A stretch of DNA of 64,000 bases from assembly GCF_004634385.1 (NCBI RefSeq), contig NZ_CP037895.1:2145245-2209244 (forward strand), written 5' to 3'. Position numbers and translations under genes: made by a program. Source of the DNA: Thermaerobacter sp. FW80 (GTDB lineage: Bacteria; Bacillota; Sulfobacillia; Thermaerobacterales; Thermaerobacteraceae). Numbering within the stretch: the stretch's first letter is position 1; each line of letters begins with the position of its first letter. Below are positions 19,968-26,416 of this stretch, piece by piece. Below the pieces are notes generated by a model. The model made no database searches, was not told the DNA's origin, and saw only the letters and a list, made by a program, of their open reading frames with translations.

Positions 19968-20030
19968 GGCGCCTCGACGGGGACGAACCGGCCGGAGCGG
20001 AGTCGTCGCAGGATTCCCCGCGGTCATGTC

Positions 20031-20042
20031 AAACTATTGTTC
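20031..20042. promoter_or_regulatory. LexA/DinR-like box before thpR-recA
   Basis: AAAC-TATT-GTTC matches the Firmicute SOS consensus GAAC-N4-GTTC at all but the first base. It sits only three bases before the thpR ATG in a local A/T-rich island, where a bound repressor would block the start region. TATTGT within it could also serve as a -10 for a near-leaderless message. Confidence 0.5.
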
Positions 20043-20045
20043 GGT

Positions 20046-20663
20046 ATGACGGGAGACCGACGCGAGGGAAGGACCGGCGCCGCGTCCGACGAGCGCTGGC
20101 GGCTCTTCATCGCCGTGCCGGTGACGGGTACGGCGGCCGGTGCGCTGCGGGCGTGGATGGCGGTCGGACGTCGCGAGCGACCGGGGCTGAAGTGGGTGGA
20201 GCCCGACCACCTGCACATCACCCTGCGCTTCCTCGGCGAACGTCCGGCGGCGGAGATGCCCGCCCTGGTGGCGGCAGGGGCGCGGGTGGCGGGGGCCGCG
20301 GCGCCGGTGGAGGTGGAGGTCCGCGGCGTCGGCGGATTCCCCAGCGCCGAACGGACCCGCACGCTCTGGGCGGGGGTGGCGACCGGGGCCACGGAGCTGG
20401 CGGGGATGGCGGCGGGTCTGGAGCACGAGCTCCTGGCGGTGGCGCCGGACCTCGACCCGTTGAGCCACCCCTTCACCGCCCATGTCACCCTGGCGCGGGT
20501 GCGGGCGAGCTGGATCGACCTGACGCGATGGCCCCACGCGGTCGCCGCGCGGGAACGGCTCTGGGGTCGGCTGCCGGTGCGGGAGCTGGTGCTCTTCCGC
20601 AGCCGGCTGCGACCGGGCGGTCCCGTCTACACGCCCCTGCACCGCTGGCGCCTGGGACGCTGA
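20046..20663 (+). CDS. thpR: RNA 2',3'-cyclic phosphodiesterase (LigT/ThpR)
   Basis: 2H phosphoesterase, 205 aa. It opens 2',3'-cyclic phosphate ends of RNA in vitro; the in vivo role is uncertain. Both catalytic HxTx motifs are present, HIT at 57-59 in HITLRFLGE and HVT at 146-148 in HVTLARVR, with the usual spacing. ATG 20046 was chosen over TTG 20037. Neither has a Shine-Dalgarno site, so translation may be leaderless. It is immediately upstream of recA and downstream of the LexA-like box, so it may be damage-inducible. Confidence 0.9.
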
Positions 20664-20697
20664 GGGGCGCTCGCCCGCGACCGCCGGCGTCGCGGGA

Positions 20698-20745
20698 TTG
20701 ACGTCCGCACGGTTCCGCGGTAAGGTGACCGTTGGAATTTTCAAC
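20698..20745 (+). promoter_or_regulatory. recA promoter and adjacent palindrome
   Basis: TTGACG (20698-20703), a 17-bp spacer and TAAGGT (20721-20726) form a sigma-A-type promoter ahead of recA. At the expected start of transcription lies an imperfect palindrome, GTTGGAATTTTCAAC (20731-20745). It does not match the GAAC-N4-GTTC box, so the binding factor, if any, is unknown. Confidence 0.6.
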
Positions 20746-20841
20746 CAGACCGTCAAGGCACGGGAGACCAGCCCCGGGAGCGGGGGCGAAGTCGCGGTCG
20801 GGGCCGGGAGAGCGGCGCGGCCGGGCATGGAGGCGAGGTCC

Positions 20842-21864
20842 ATGATCGAGCGGGAACGGGCCCTGGAGATGGCCCTCAGCCAGATCGAGAAGCAGTTCGG
20901 CAAGGGCTCCATCATGCGGATGGGGGAGGCGTCGTCGCGCCTCAACGTCGAGGTCATCCCCACGGGGTCGCTGGCCCTGGACATCGCGCTGGGCGTGGGC
21001 GGCATGCCCCGGGGCCGCATCGTCGAGATCTTCGGTCCCGAGGCGTCGGGCAAGACCACCGTCGCCCTCCACGTCGTGGCCTCGGCGCAACGGGCGGGGG
21101 GCGTGGCGGCCTTCATCGACGCGGAGCACGCCCTCGACCCCGTCTATGCCGAGAACCTGGGTGTGGACGTGGACAACCTGCTGATCTCGCAGCCCGACAC
21201 CGGCGAGCAGGCCCTGGAGATCGCGGAGGCCCTGGTGCGGAGCGGTGCCGTGGACGTCATCGTCATCGACTCCGTCGCCGCGCTGGTGCCGAGGGCGGAG
21301 ATCGAGGGGGAGATGGGCGACGCCCACGTGGGCCTGCAGGCACGGCTGATGTCCCAGGCGCTGCGGAAGCTGACCGGGGCCATCGCCAAGTCGCGCACCT
21401 GCCTGATCTTCATCAACCAGATCCGGGAGAAGGTCGGCGTGATGTTCGGCAACCCGGAGGTGACCCCCGGGGGCCGGGCGTTGAAGTTCTATGCCTCCGT
21501 GCGGCTGGACGTGCGGCGGGTGGAGACGTTGAAGCAGGGCGGCGAGATGATCGGCATTCGCGCGCGGGCCAAGGTGGTGAAGAACAAGGTGGCGCCGCCC
21601 TTCCGGCAGGCGGAGTTCGACCTCATCTACGGCAAGGGGATCTCCCGCGAGGGCGACCTGCTGGACATCGCCACCCAGCACGGGATCATCGAGAAGTCCG
21701 GCGCCTGGTACTCCTACGGCGACACCCGGATCGGCCAGGGTCGAGAGAACGCCCGCGAGTACCTGGTCCAGCACCCGGAGGTGGCCGACGCCATCGAGCA
21801 GCGGGTGCGCGAGCTCCTGAGCCTGGGCGGCATCCGGGCGGCCACCGCCAGCGAAGAGGAGTAG
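20842..21864 (+). CDS. recA: recombinase RecA
   Basis: Forms the strand-exchange filament on ssDNA and stimulates LexA self-cleavage. Walker A GPEASGKT at 65-72, the MAW-type opening [15 protein letters not shown], loop L1/L2 regions ([44 protein letters not shown]), and an acidic SEEE tail. ATG 20842 has GGAGGCGAGG just upstream and gives the canonical 340 aa; ATG 20827 in frame is less likely. It is followed 13 bp later by recX, a common pairing. Confidence 0.98.
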
Positions 21865-21877
21865 CCGGGACCCGGCC

Positions 21878-22618
21878 ATGGTCGAGGGCCGCGGGGGCGG
21901 ACCCACCGGGCGCGACGCCGCCCCGGGGGACGCCGGGGCGGGGACCGACGAAGCCGTCCGACGGGCTGTGGCGACGGCGCTCCGCTGGCTCGCGGTGCGG
22001 GCCCGCAGCGAGTGGGAGGTGCGCCAGCACCTGCGGCGCCACGGGGTGACGGAGGCGATGGTAGACCAGGTCCTGGCCCAGCTGCGGGCCTGGGGCTACG
22101 TGGACGACCGTCGCCTCGCGCTGGAGGCCGCGGAAGCGGCCCGGGTTCGCCATGTCGGACCCCGGCGGCTGCGTGACGAGCTGCTGCGGCGCGGGGTCCC
22201 CGAGGCGGTGGTGCGCGACGCCCTGGAGGCCACGTGGCCGGCCGAGGTCGAGCGGGAGGTGGCGTGGGAGCTGGCGCGGCGGCGCTGGGCCCGGTTCGTC
22301 GCGCCATCCCCTGGGGGTGACGGCCGGGAGCGGAGGGGGGTCGTCGACGCCGCCGGCTGCGCCGACGGCGAGGAGGGGGCCGGCGAGGGGCCTGACGGCC
22401 CGGTCGGCGATCGGCCTGCATCCGCCGGTCCCGCGGGCCGTCCCGAGGGGCGCGGGGGCGCGCGGCAGCGGGCCGCCGCCCGGCTCTACCGATTCCTGGT
22501 GGGGCGGGGCTTCGGGGCGGAGGTGGCCGAGGCGATCGTCCGACGGCTGGCCGAGGAGGACGGCGAGCCCGGCCGCCCCGCGTCGGCGGGGGACGGGCCG
22601 CGGCGGCCGTTCCCTTGA
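21878..22618 (+). CDS. recX: RecX regulator of RecA
   Basis: Helical protein that binds the RecA filament and limits its activity. Three-helix repeat motifs are visible: ALRWLAVRARSEWEVRQHLRRHGV, VLAQLRAWGYVDDRRLALEAAEA, and RRLRDELLRRGVPEAVV. A Gly/Asp-rich insertion of about 55 residues (roughly 140-195) interrupts the third repeat before YRFLVGRGFGAEV. 246 aa with a low-complexity N-terminus; the true start could be slightly downstream. The last codons overlap the -35 box of the next promoter. Confidence 0.9.
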   Translation: MVEGRGGGPTGRDAAPGDAGAGTDEAVRRAVATALRWLAVRARSEWEVRQHLRRHGVTEAMVDQVLAQLRAWGYVDDRRLALEAAEAARVRHVGPRRLRDELLRRGVPEAVVRDALEATWPAEVEREVAWELARRRWARFVAPSPGGDGRERRGVVDAAGCADGEEGAGEGPDGPVGDRPASAGPAGRPEGRGGARQRAAARLYRFLVGRGFGAEVAEAIVRRLAEEDGEPGRPASAGDGPRRPFP

Positions 22619-22644
22619 CAGGGGTTTCTTGCAACCCCTAGAAT
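22615..22644 (+). promoter_or_regulatory. strong sigma-A promoter upstream of rny
   Basis: TTGACA (22615-22620) and TAGAAT (22639-22644) are separated by 18 bp. The spacer is itself an inverted repeat, GGGGTT (22621-22626) with AACCCC (22633-22638), which could be an operator. The -35 overlaps the recX stop codon. The first transcribed base should be near 22651. Confidence 0.8.
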
Positions 22645-22650
22645 GAATTA

Positions 22651-22839
22651 TCGGGATCTCTCGAAAACGCGGCCACAATTGCGTAATCCGATGATATCCG
22701 GCGCAAAATCATGAAAACGCGGCGAAATCTGGGTGTCATGACAATCCGGTCGCCGGTCCCCGTCCCGACGCCCGAGGGGCGTGGGGCGCGGGTCACAGTG
22801 GTCAGCGCGCCGAGCCGGGTCCCTGCACTCGGCTTTTTT
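22651..22839 (+). promoter_or_regulatory. structured leader ending in a terminator: attenuator or small RNA
   Basis: About 190 nt between the strong promoter and a T-tracted hairpin lying 50 bp before rny. The first half is A-rich for this genome and contains GAAAACGCGGC twice (about 50 bp apart). A hairpin CGCCC-GAG-GGGCG is at 22769-22781. The layout suits a riboswitch-like attenuator of rny or a free small RNA. I could not match it to T-box, cyclic-di-GMP, fluoride or other leaders from memory. Confidence 0.55.
22809..22839 (+). terminator. rho-independent terminator before rny
   Basis: GCCGAG (22809-22814) pairs with CTCGGC (22828-22833) across a 13-nt loop and is followed directly by six T residues. 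It would end most transcripts from 22651 before rny unless an alternative fold forms. Confidence 0.75.
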
Positions 22840-22888
22840 GTTAGGGGGCCGGCGGGGGCGTCGACCGCGGGCCGAGGGAGTGAAGGAG

Positions 22889-24436
22889 ATGGTCGTTCCG
22901 ACAGGCGTCTTCGTCCTCATCCTCCTCGCGACCCTCGTGATCGCCGGGCTGGCCGGCTACCTGGTCCGCAAGGTGGTGGCGGAGAGCCGCATCGGCTCCG
23001 CCGAGGCCCTGGCCCGACAGCTGATCGAAGAGGGCCGGAAGGAGGGCGAGGCGCGCAAGCGCGAGGCCCTGCTGGAGGCGAAGGAAGAGGTCCACAGGCT
23101 GCGCACGGACTTCGAACGGGAGAGCCGGGAGCGGCGGCAAGAGCTGCAGCAACTGGAGCGGCGCCTGCTGCAACGGGAGGAGGCGCTGGAACGACGGGCG
23201 CGCCAGCTGGACGAGCGGGAGGAGCTGATGCGGGCCCGTGAGCGCGACCTGGACCGGGCCGAAGAGCTGGTGGAGGAGCTGCGCCTGCGGCAGATGACGG
23301 AGCTGGAGCGCATCGCCGGCATGAGCCGCGACGAGGCGCGGGAGCTGCTCATGAGCCAGGTCCGGGAGGAGATGCGCCACGACCTGGCGGTGATGATCCG
23401 GCAGATGGAGGAGGAGGCCCGCGCCGAGGCGGACCGCCGGGCGCGGGAGATCATCGCCAACGCGGTCCAGCGCCTGGCGGCGGAGTACGTCCCCGAGCTC
23501 ACCGTGTCGGTGGTCGAGCTGCCCGGGGACGAGATGAAGGGCCGCATCATCGGCCGCGAGGGGCGCAACATCCGGCACTTCGAGGCCCTGACGGGGGTCG
23601 ACCTGATCATCGACGACACGCCGGAGGCGGTGGTGATCTCCTGCTTCGACCCGATCCGCCGGGAGATCGCCCGCATGACGCTGGAGAAGCTGATCGCCGA
23701 CGGGCGCATCCACCCGGCGAAGATCGAGGAGATGTACGCCAAGGCCGTGGAGGAGATGGAGGAGCGCATCCGCCAGGAGGGCGAGCGCGCCTGCTACGAG
23801 GTGGGCGTGCACAACCTGCACCCGGAGCTGGTCAAGCTGCTGGGCCGGTTGGCCTTCCGGACCAGCTACGGCCAGAACATCCTCCAGCACTCCATCGAGG
23901 TGGCCCACCTCTGCGCCCTGATGGCGTACGAGCTAGGCGCCGACGTCAACGTGGCGCGGCGCGCCGGGCTCCTGCACGACATCGGCAAGGCGCTGGACCA
24001 CGAGATGGAGGGCACCCACCTCACCATTGGCATGGAGATCCTGCAGAAGTATCATGAGTCGGAAGAGGTCATCCATGCCATGTCCTGCCACCACGGGGAC
24101 TTCGAGGCGAAGACCATCGAGGCGGTCATCGTCACCGCCGCCGACGCGCTGTCGGCGGCGCGACCCGGGGCGCGGCGCGAGACCCTGGAGGCGTACATCC
24201 GCCGGCTGCGCCAGCTGGAGGAGATCGCCTCCAGCTTCCCCGGGGTGGCGAAGGCCTACGCCATCCAGGCGGGGCGCGAGGTGCGCATCATGGTCCACCC
24301 CGACCAGGTGGACGACGCCGAGGCGTACCTCCTGGCGCGGCAGATCGCCAAGCGCATCGAGCGGGAGCTCCAGTACCCGGGCCAGATCAAGGTGACGCTG
24401 ATCCGGGAGACGAGGGTGACCGAGTACGCGCGGTAG
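22889..24436 (+). CDS. rny: ribonuclease Y
   Basis: Membrane-anchored endoribonuclease that starts mRNA decay in Firmicutes. An N-terminal transmembrane helix (about residues 5-25) leads to a long coiled coil (about 30-200, rich in Glu/Arg). The KH domain has [11 protein letters not shown] at 218-228. The HD domain has [17 protein letters not shown] and LLHDIGKA with His363-Asp364. 515 aa is normal. ATG 22889 is chosen with GAGGGAG at 22874-22880 as Shine-Dalgarno; a GTG at 22880 is in frame but badly spaced. It is expressed through the leader and terminator described above. ymdB follows, as in B. subtilis. Confidence 0.97.
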
Positions 24437-24442
24437 CCACGG

Positions 24443-24479
24443 GCGGGGGTGCCGCGGCCGGCGGCCGCGGCACCCCCGC
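24443..24479. repeat. 17-bp perfect hairpin downstream of rny
   Basis: Arms 24443-24459 and 24463-24479 are fully complementary around the loop GGC. There is no T-run. The high stability suggests an mRNA 3'-end block to exonucleases or a GC-only terminator. Confidence 0.7.
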
Positions 24480-24499
24480 GGGCCGGCATGGGGTGCGCA

Positions 24500-24543
24500 G
24501 GCGCGCCGGGACGGCGGGCCCCCGCCCGCCGTCCCGGCGCGCC
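24500..24543. repeat. 19-bp perfect hairpin upstream of ymdB
   Basis: Arms 24500-24518 and 24525-24543 are fully complementary around the loop CCCCCG. It follows the previous hairpin by only 20 bp and ends 14 bp before the ymdB Shine-Dalgarno GAGGGGG (24558-24564), so it could affect termination or ribosome loading. Confidence 0.7.
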
Positions 24544-24571
24544 GTGGCATTCCCCCCGAGGGGGCTGGGGC

Positions 24572-25360
24572 GTGCGGCTGCTGTTCATCGGCGACGTGGT
24601 GGGCCGGGCGGGGCGCCGGATGCTGCGGGACCACCTGGAGAGCCTCATCGAGCAACACGGCATCGAGCTGACGGTGGTCAACGGCGAGAACGCCGCCGGC
24701 GGGTGGGGTCTCACCCCCGAGACCGCCGACGAGCTCTTCGCCGCGGGCGCGGACGTCATCACCCTGGGCAACCACTGGGCCGACCGCAAGGAGATCCTGC
24801 CCTACCTGGAGCGCAATCCGCGGGTCCTGCGCCCGCTGAACTGGCCGGGTGAGCCGCCGGGGCAGGGGGCGGTGGTGGCCGAGGGCCGCAGCGGGTGTCG
24901 GGTGGCCGTCCTCTGCCTGATGGGACGGGTCTTCGCCGACAGCCTGCTGGACGACCCCTTCGTGGCCGCCGACCGTGCCCTGACCGGCCTGGCGGGCCAG
25001 GCCGCGGCGATCCTGGTGGACGTGCACGGCGACGCCACCTCGGAGAAGCAGGCCCTGGCCTGGTACCTGGACGGCCGGGTGTCCGCGGTGGTCGGGACCC
25101 ACACCCACACCCCCACGGCGGACGAGCGGGTCCTGCCGGGCGGGACGGCCGCCATCACCGACGTGGGCATGACGGGTCCGCGGGACTCGATCATCGGCTT
25201 CGAGCCCGACGGGGTCATCCGGCGGCTGCGCACCCAGCTCCAGGTGCGCCTCGAGGTGGCCCGCGGCCCCCGGGTGCTCTGCGGCGTCATCGTCGACGTC
25301 GACCGGGACACCGGCAAGGCCACGGCCATCGAGCGCATCCGCGTCGAAGACCCCGGCTAG
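24572..25360 (+). CDS. ymdB: YmdB-type metallophosphoesterase (2',3'-cyclic-nucleotide phosphodiesterase family)
   Basis: 262 aa. In B. subtilis YmdB hydrolyses 2',3'-cAMP and controls biofilm/motility switching. Metal-ligand motifs: FIGDVVGRAGRR at the N-terminus, VVNGENAAGGWGLT, LGNHWADR, DVHGDATSEKQALAWYLDGR and VGTHTHTPTADERVLPGGTAAITDVGMTGP. Start GTG 24572 with GAGGGGG eight bases upstream. Directly after rny, matching the conserved pair. Confidence 0.95.
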   Translation: MRLLFIGDVVGRAGRRMLRDHLESLIEQHGIELTVVNGENAAGGWGLTPETADELFAAGADVITLGNHWADRKEILPYLERNPRVLRPLNWPGEPPGQGAVVAEGRSGCRVAVLCLMGRVFADSLLDDPFVAADRALTGLAGQAAAILVDVHGDATSEKQALAWYLDGRVSAVVGTHTHTPTADERVLPGGTAAITDVGMTGPRDSIIGFEPDGVIRRLRTQLQVRLEVARGPRVLCGVIVDVDRDTGKATAIERIRVEDPG

Positions 25361-25396
25361 GGGCGGCACGGGTGGGATGGGAGGCGAGGGAACGGG

Positions 25397-26416
25397 ATGC
25401 CGTACACGCCCTACGGCCCCATCGTCGACGCTCACGTGGACACCGTGCTGGATCTGGCCGCCGGCCGGCGCCGGCTGGGCGAGCGGTCGCCAGAGGGCCA
25501 CGTGGACCTGCCCCGCCTGGAGGAGGCGGGGGTGGGGGTGCAGGTCTTCGCCCACTGGATCGAGCCGGCCTACAAGCCCCACGCGGCCCTGGTCCGCTTC
25601 ATGGAGCTCTACGACGCCTTCCTGGCGGAGGTGGCCCGCAACGCCGACCGCATCGCGGTGGTCACGGGCGTGGACGACCTCCAGCGGACCCTGGCCGCCG
25701 GCAAGGTGGCCGCGGTCGTCGGCATCGAGGGCGGCGAGGTCCTCCACGGGCGTCTGGGCGTGCTGCGGCTGCTCCACCGGCTGGGGGTGCGGCTGGTCGG
25801 CCTGACCTGGAACGAGCGCAACGACCTGGCGGACGGCGCCGGCGACGGCCGCAGCGGCGGCGGGCTCTCGCAGCGGGGCGTGGCGGTGGTGCGGGAGATG
25901 AACCGCCTGGGGATGGTGGTCGACGTCAGCCACCTCTCCGACGCCGGCTTCTACGACGTCCTCGCGGTCTCCCGCCAGCCGGTGGTGGCCTCCCACTCCA
26001 ACTGCCGCGCCCTGTGCCCCCACCCGCGGAACCTCAGCGACGACCAGATCCGAGCCCTGGCCGCCCAGGGGGGCGTCATGGGCATGAACTTCTACGCCCG
26101 TTTCCTGCGGGCGGACGGTCCGGCCACGGTGGACGACGTGGTTCGACACATCGAACACGTGGCCTCGCTGGTGGGGCCCGAGCACGTCGGCCTCGGGTCG
26201 GACTTCGACGGCATCGGGGAGACGCCCCAGGGCCTGGAGGACGTCACCCGGCTGCCCAACCTGATCGAGGCGCTGCTGCGCCGCAACTGGAAGGAAGACC
26301 ACCTGCGGCTGGTCCTCGCCGAGAACTTCCTGCGGGTCTTCCGCCAGGTGTGGTCCGCGGGGGAGCCGGCCTATCCCGCGCCGGAGGAGCCCGACGTCGG
26401 CGGGCCCGGGCTGTGA
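25397..26416 (+). CDS. membrane dipeptidase (peptidase family M19)
   Basis: Renal-dipeptidase-like zinc dipeptidase, 339 aa. Motifs: DAHVDTVLDLA (metal His-x-Asp), GIEGGEVLHGRLGVLRLLHRLGVRLVGLTWNERN with the bridging Glu, VVDVSHLSDAGFYDVL, ASHSNCRAL and GLGSDFDGI. No signal peptide is visible, so it is probably cytosolic and may hydrolyse dipeptides, including D-amino-acid forms. It lies 36 bp after ymdB and upstream of an aminopeptidase gene, giving a peptide-turnover pair. Confidence 0.92.
   Translation: MPYTPYGPIVDAHVDTVLDLAAGRRRLGERSPEGHVDLPRLEEAGVGVQVFAHWIEPAYKPHAALVRFMELYDAFLAEVARNADRIAVVTGVDDLQRTLAAGKVAAVVGIEGGEVLHGRLGVLRLLHRLGVRLVGLTWNERNDLADGAGDGRSGGGLSQRGVAVVREMNRLGMVVDVSHLSDAGFYDVLAVSRQPVVASHSNCRALCPHPRNLSDDQIRALAAQGGVMGMNFYARFLRADGPATVDDVVRHIEHVASLVGPEHVGLGSDFDGIGETPQGLEDVTRLPNLIEALLRRNWKEDHLRLVLAENFLRVFRQVWSAGEPAYPAPEEPDVGGPGL

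Follow-up and report, generated by a model that had tools for sequence, protein, structure and literature searches.

A probable transcription attenuator upstream of the RNase Y gene in Thermaerobacter

The rny locus and its leader

The window, a 64,000-nucleotide stretch of the Thermaerobacter sp. FW80 genome, carries recA, recX and rny in this order, followed by a gene for a ymdB-type (TIGR00282) phosphoesterase. The features recognized from the end of recX onwards are as follows; P0 and P1 denote two predicted helices of the leader RNA.

22615..22644, + strand: sigma-A promoter, TTGACA-18 bp-TAGAAT (motif scan; kept in four relatives)
22650..22840, + strand: leader RNA of about 190 nt, its start placed from the -10 box; the single strong match to covariance model R1 in each of five genomes
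22651..22664, + strand: small 5′ hairpin that would take the place of P0 in the terminated state (leader folding)
22653..22663, + strand: 5′ strand of P0, the predicted antiterminator, GGGAUCU and CUCG, pairing with 22817-22823 and 22811-22814
22668..22676, + strand: 5′ strand of P1, CGCGGCCAC, unchanged in five genomes save for one G-U and co-varying across families
22720..22794, + strand: two hairpin domains, 22720-22755 and 22756-22794, enclosed by P1 in the part of the leader that varies (folding)
22798..22807, + strand: 3′ strand of P1, GUGGUCAGCG (alignment and folding)
22811..22823, + strand: 3′ strand of P0, CGAG and GGGUCCC, made up of the terminator 5′ arm together with some of the loop (folding)
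22812..22839, + strand: intrinsic terminator, stem 22812-22820/22827-22835 and T-tract 22834-22839 (scan; conserved stem)
22882..22887, + strand: rny ribosome-binding site, AAGGAG
22889..24436, + strand: rny, encoding RNase Y, the gene presumed to be under control (TIGR03319, 755.6 bits against a cut-off of 454); its ATG, at 22889, lies just downstream of AAGGAG

The original prediction was of a consensus promoter, with a hairpin in its spacer, driving an A-rich leader of about 190 nt that ends in a T-tracted terminator 50 bp before the RNase Y start. The promoter was borne out, with TTGACA (22615-22620) and TAGAAT (22639-22644) separated by 18 bp and matching the consensus at 11/12 positions. 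The recX gene ends at 22618, within the -35 box, which its stop codon overlaps. The spacer (22621-22638) is indeed a perfect inverted repeat, GGGGTTTCTTGCAACCCC, with a predicted hairpin of -7.7 kcal/mol, but the hairpin is not conserved: the spacers of relatives reach only -0.8 to -3.7 kcal/mol, and it is therefore probably due to chance. A motif scan of positions 20000-26000 returned 3 promoter-like sites, against 0.2 in shuffled sequences, and no further site between the terminator and rny; terminator-like sites over the same interval numbered 3, with 0.8 expected.

If transcription starts near 22650, as the -10 box suggests, the leader has the predicted length. It is A-rich only over its initial 100 nt (A 30%, GC 51%, compared with A 12%, GC 76% for the whole window), and the 100 bp from 22641 are the most A+T-rich among 6390 sliding windows of this 76% GC stretch. 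The terminator agrees closely with the prediction, its tract of six T ending at 22839, 49 bp before the rny start. The fold of the leader as a single sequence was modest (z = -1.83), with equally good folds in 8/200 shuffles, so that it is conservation, and not folding alone, that places the observation above chance.

Comparison with Rfam gave no match at the gathering score for the window and 20 loci, and only chance-like sRNA and miRNA rows among 40 short loci at E of 1 or less. The BcKCsr2 row (23.1 bits, gathering score 40) reflects a GC-rich hairpin matching a Burkholderia sRNA and was taken as chance. 6S RNA, considered for its size and place, was found at a different site of the genome (G000:C1:2343866), with no RF00013 match at the leader, and a T-box leader was set aside for want of an Rfam T-box match in the window and 20 loci. 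No earlier description of an rny attenuator was found among the open-licence papers listed; the accessible portions of PMC11109978, PMC9045289 and PMC7438776 contain no description of such an rny leader. The results from Rfam and from the open-licence literature agree with the original remark that such a leader was not known for rny.

Conservation and the alternative helix

A DNA search of 41 genomes, including its own, located the element in its own genome, in 3/3 other members of the genus and in 1/1 other member of the family; three further short matches (L006-L008) were not at rny and were discarded. The alignment of rny upstream regions proposed with the original prediction was run, and showed the element to be kept, not lost, in the relatives (5/5 family genomes). 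The aligned leaders are 186-188 nt long, and all five have the promoter ahead of the terminator. Almost no change is seen in the promoter, in the initial ~30 nt of the leader or in its final ~45 nt, which include the terminator, and P1 connects the two conserved ends; the middle is variable, the inner hairpin domains being poorly kept in sequence even within the genus. Covariance model R1 produced one strong match per genome, each before rny (5/5 genomes), with next-best matches in the family genomes at E 0.36 or weaker. Its strong reach is limited to the family. Class-wide it returned four weak matches, which were considered chance, as two (L023, L024) lie before rny but two (L022, L025) do not. 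RNAalifold found two-sided changes in 3/55 pairs among the five family genomes, with an unfavourable covariation term. Since this result was poor and the single-sequence fold modest, the case for an attenuator was not built on either.

The comparison was extended to the class, where rny was detected in 99/145 genomes of at least 80% completeness. The class set comprised 98 upstream regions from 41 families, being 97 of the 99 (two had no gene start) and one from an extra genome. Among the 46/145 genomes without an RNase Y match at E 1e-60 are all listed members of families f8 and f47, with completeness >90%. Under fixed criteria, a terminator was found near rny in 84/98 regions and a sigma-A promoter in 65/98; both occurred together in 58/98 regions, representing 31/41 families. 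The same criteria returned no terminator in 14/98 regions, and the pair was missing in 40/98. The class terminators are alike in sequence, reading GCCGAG(U/C)...CUCGGC and then U. Across 172 longer loci, a CYGAG/CUYGG stem was present in 42/101 terminators before rny vs 3/394 elsewhere, and two of these three represent an rny terminator read on its mirror strand; the ordinary terminators in those loci share no such stem.

In many families the 5′ end of the transcript resembles the 3′ arm of the terminator (e.g. GGACUCG or GACUUGGCUU), and should therefore be able to pair with the 5′ arm. Free folding of the full window leader gave -82.8 kcal/mol with the terminator present. When the terminator 3′ arm was barred from pairing, the leader folded at -80.3 kcal/mol with P0 (22653-22659/22817-22823 and 22660-22663/22811-22814) lying outside P1 (22668-22676/22798-22807), a gap between the two states of 2.5 kcal/mol. 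This fold, together with co-variation over 30 families, is the basis on which the P0 5′ strand was assigned. P0 and the terminator share one strand, and the two are therefore mutually exclusive in the predicted folds. For the four relatives the gap was 2.3-5.0 kcal/mol; one of them (L005) has no terminator stem even in its free fold. Among 53 class leaders the terminator state was mostly favoured, with a median gap of 6.2 kcal/mol; 19 were within 5 kcal/mol.

Several tests addressed the pairing of the 5′ end across the class. Duplex energies, computed for 49/58 leaders (9 shorter ones were left out), were lower than for shuffled 5′ ends by a median z of -1.15, with p of 0.05 or less in 11/49, while the 3′ arm control gave a median z of +0.43. 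Long-range folding as far as the terminator loop was possible within length limits for 53/58 leaders. The first 32 nt formed a mean of 10.3 pairs with the 5′ arm vs 4.9 for shuffled 5′ ends; observed pairing exceeded shuffled pairing in 30/30 families, and 28/53 single leaders did so at 0.05 or less. Each 5′ end paired better with its own arm than with the arms of other families (-19.1 vs -14.3 kcal/mol, 0/5000 permutations). In the between-family permutation the P0 signal sits in nt 0-20 (z = -7.0); control pairings using nt 20-40, 40-72, 55-85, DNA upstream of the -35 or the 3′ arm gave z of -1.4 to +1.3. With permutation matched for GC, the class set retained both P0 (z = -5.2, 0/4000) and P1 (z = -4.4, 0/4000). 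Leader by leader, P1 was weak, with z below -1.64 in 4/21 and 9/33, and it was clear only in the across-family permutation. When 13 Clostridia-type leaders were aligned together, their P1 3′ strands failed to come into register, and for this reason a second covariance model was not built. Across the families of the class, P0 and P1 are established by co-variation as predicted helices.

Outside the class, rny was present in 244/249 genomes searched. One locus was taken from each of 61 families among the matches listed, and these 61 loci contained 44 terminators and 58 promoters, with 41 having both; the stems were again mostly CCGAG...CUCGG. Many of these leaders start with GGGAGAAACUAG, complementary to the terminator segment CCGAGUUUCU. 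P1 reads CUACCA...UGGUAG in many, changed to CUGCCA...UGGCAG in L268, and was supported by GC-matched permutation over 29 families with usable boundaries (z = -6.9, 0/4000). P0 reached z = -3.5 (1/4000) in the same 29-family test, but a control window at 35-55 also reached z = -3.1; because of this, the presence of P0 in other classes is graded as likely only.

A predicted switch and its alternatives

There is a good probability that the element is a cis-acting transcription attenuator of rny, and the leader is probably an undescribed switch setting the rate of message destruction. The original prediction had offered an attenuator as one of its readings, and comparative evidence argues for it: relatives carry the element upstream of rny and keep the sequence of the terminator stem there, and the 5′ end co-varies with the terminator 5′ arm, as expected of an antiterminator. 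Promoter and terminator lie upstream of rny with no intervening promoter, and the co-varying helix is exclusive with the terminator. Promoter, P1, P0, terminator and their exclusive pairing are, as predicted elements, shown by comparison; from them we infer that a choice between read-through and stop is made co-transcriptionally in the cell and regulated by a signal.

In the proposed mechanism, transcription of the leader would begin at the sigma-A promoter. P1 (22668-22676 with 22798-22807) would close the middle of the leader and place the 5′ end beside the terminator, where 22653-22663 could pair with the 5′ arm (22811-22823) to form P0, stacked outside P1. While P0 holds, RNA polymerase would continue into rny. 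Loss of P0 would allow the 3′ arm to recapture the 5′ arm, so that the terminator would form and only a short RNA would be made. Read-through could win by kinetics, since P0 and P1 would be complete before the terminator 3′ arm is made.

In many Bacillota, most mRNA decay is initiated by RNase Y, whose amount therefore sets mRNA lifetimes. Were terminator/antiterminator leaders widespread upstream of rny, transcription would provide a further level of control, the published B. subtilis mechanism being one of mRNA decay. Such an attenuator would be a sensor whose input is directly searchable, and a concrete tie of RNA synthesis to decay.

In E. coli, feedback by RNase E through the rne 5′ UTR acts on mRNA stability, binding of a stem-loop speeding cleavage elsewhere. 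The Thermaerobacter leader would resemble rne in that a decay-initiating nuclease is controlled via its own 5′ UTR, and would differ in being an attenuator. The rne feedback is mentioned in the discussion of PMC10303841, the available text of which concerns autoregulation through the rny 5′ UTR of B. subtilis. The likeness here extends to the same gene, a long 5′ UTR (164 nt there) and control via the leader. In B. subtilis, control is by mRNA cleavage and decay, with no terminator or antiterminator described in the sections available (PMC10303841); the Thermaerobacter leader, in contrast, contains a terminator and an alternative helix.

Among possible triggers we place RNase Y feedback first, as a favoured guess that is still less likely than not, ahead of a ligand and, in third place, a link to RNA polymerase. 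In the first case, excess RNase Y would cut or bind the 5′ part of the nascent leader, so that P0 is lost and rny goes down. The motif AUAGA, 25-62 nt past the -10 box, is found in 23/62 class leaders (1.3 expected) and 16/31 families (0.8 expected), frequently just past the P1 5′ strand, and could be either the core of a binding site or a place of cleavage. Cleavage by RNase Y occurs preferentially after G, according to the accessible part of PMC7101322, and the B. subtilis enzyme cleaves the 5′ UTR of its own mRNA, chiefly within 50 nt of the 5′ end, as stated in the available text of PMC10303841; both observations fit a trigger of this kind. Against it, AUAGA is missing from the window and its family, and where present its predicted accessibility is slightly above average (0.43 vs 0.33 for the rest), which leaves single-strandedness unsupported. 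RNase Y is also membrane-bound, so that cutting before the terminator is synthesized may be too slow. In the 76 leaders examined from an 80-locus set, mostly from Clostridia, the motif was not clearly enriched (31 vs 22.9 expected).

A bolder version, which we regard as rather improbable, would have a leader class across much of Bacillota in which RNase Y itself cuts the nascent leader near AUAG/A, the cut being the switch. A cut ~35-45 nt into the transcript, made while the partner strands do not yet exist, would detach the 5′ part that contains the antiterminator and P1 strands; the terminator would then form and rny would be off. If true, this would be nuclease feedback by cutting that acts on transcription instead of mRNA stability.

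Transcription-attenuating riboswitches combine a structured domain with an exclusive terminator/antiterminator pair and control the downstream gene in cis. The rny leader is like them in its closed structured domain, its exclusive pairings and its predicted cis control of the next gene, and unlike known ones in that the extreme 5′ end of the RNA supplies the predicted antiterminator strand and no Rfam riboswitch class was matched. A metabolite or ion riboswitch, with an aptamer enclosed by P1 and a ligand that either stabilizes P1-P0, giving read-through, or breaks it, is possible but doubtful. The P1-closed domain beside the terminator and antiterminator is riboswitch anatomy, and the near-fixed distance of AUAGA in the 16/31 families noted above would suit a binding core. 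Its absence from the window's family does not fit, nor does the P1 interior, which is highly variable in length and sequence even within the family.

Less likely again is that the leader senses transcription, with RNA polymerase or a partner binding it to adjust read-through and so couple decay to synthesis. According to the accessible text of PMC11077062, B. subtilis RNA polymerase carries rny mRNA at ~64-fold enrichment, and rny is genetically linked to rpoB/rpoC; the enrichment ties the rny transcript physically to the transcription machinery. In that text, however, the bound species is the full-length B. subtilis mRNA, with no leader defined or singled out, and the authors describe the interaction as species-specific.

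The original prediction had also considered a small RNA. We consider an independent RNA that happens to lie before rny, with rny fed by read-through from recA-recX or by leakage, unlikely: it would account for the promoter, the terminator and the stable fold, but the single strong copy per genome always lies before rny (5/5 family genomes), a context not independent of that gene. Co-variation of P0 with the terminator arm would be unneeded for an sRNA, and the scan gave no promoter-like site from which rny could be transcribed downstream of the terminator. An ordinary recA-recX operon terminator with leaky transcription into rny, the 5′-end pairing being a by-product, is very improbable. A terminator would be expected where recX ends, but a promoter precedes it in all five family genomes and in the 58/98 class regions, and the conserved stem is nearly absent from ordinary terminators in the same loci (3/394). 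A leader-peptide attenuator, in which a ribosome stalled on an upstream frame selects the structure, is extremely improbable: a frame from 22711 is open through the leader, and three same-genus relatives share the ATG and open frame, but it has no evident Shine-Dalgarno sequence, continues beyond the terminator, has no start in the sister genus and shows almost even substitution across codon positions (7/12/13, 8/9/12 and 8/9/10), not the bias of a coding frame.

Other rny leaders

In an 80-locus set, mostly from Clostridia, many Peptostreptococcaceae and Lachnospiraceae loci had a promoter and leader with no clear terminator, and the design is therefore not universal.

Different leaders were seen in particular branches. 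In the family f7 branch (L131, L181, L195, L203), a different conserved hairpin with a T-tract, GCCAGATAAGCCGGTGGCTGTCTGG, stands in for the usual terminator and lies immediately upstream of the ribosome-binding site. In Peptostreptococcaceae (L027-L048), the 330 bases upstream of rny contain a closely similar promoter, CTTGACA ... TAGAAAAAATTATAAAATTAA, and the leaders mostly end in TTTTGGGATTATTAACAAAGGAGGTGGATGTCAT with no clear terminator, a different conserved rny leader. Lachnospiraceae-type leaders (L077-L101) are mostly short, with a conserved TTGTAT...GTACAATGAAAA just upstream of the ribosome-binding site that corresponds to a small UUGUAC/GUACAA hairpin. In Negativicutes-type leaders (L068, L081, L096, L269), which are ~110 nt long, GCCGGUUU occurs close to the start, and a terminator of the AAGCCGGAC...GUUCGGCUUUUU type closes the leader immediately upstream of the ribosome-binding site of rny; their 5′ end resembles the 5′ arm of this terminator.
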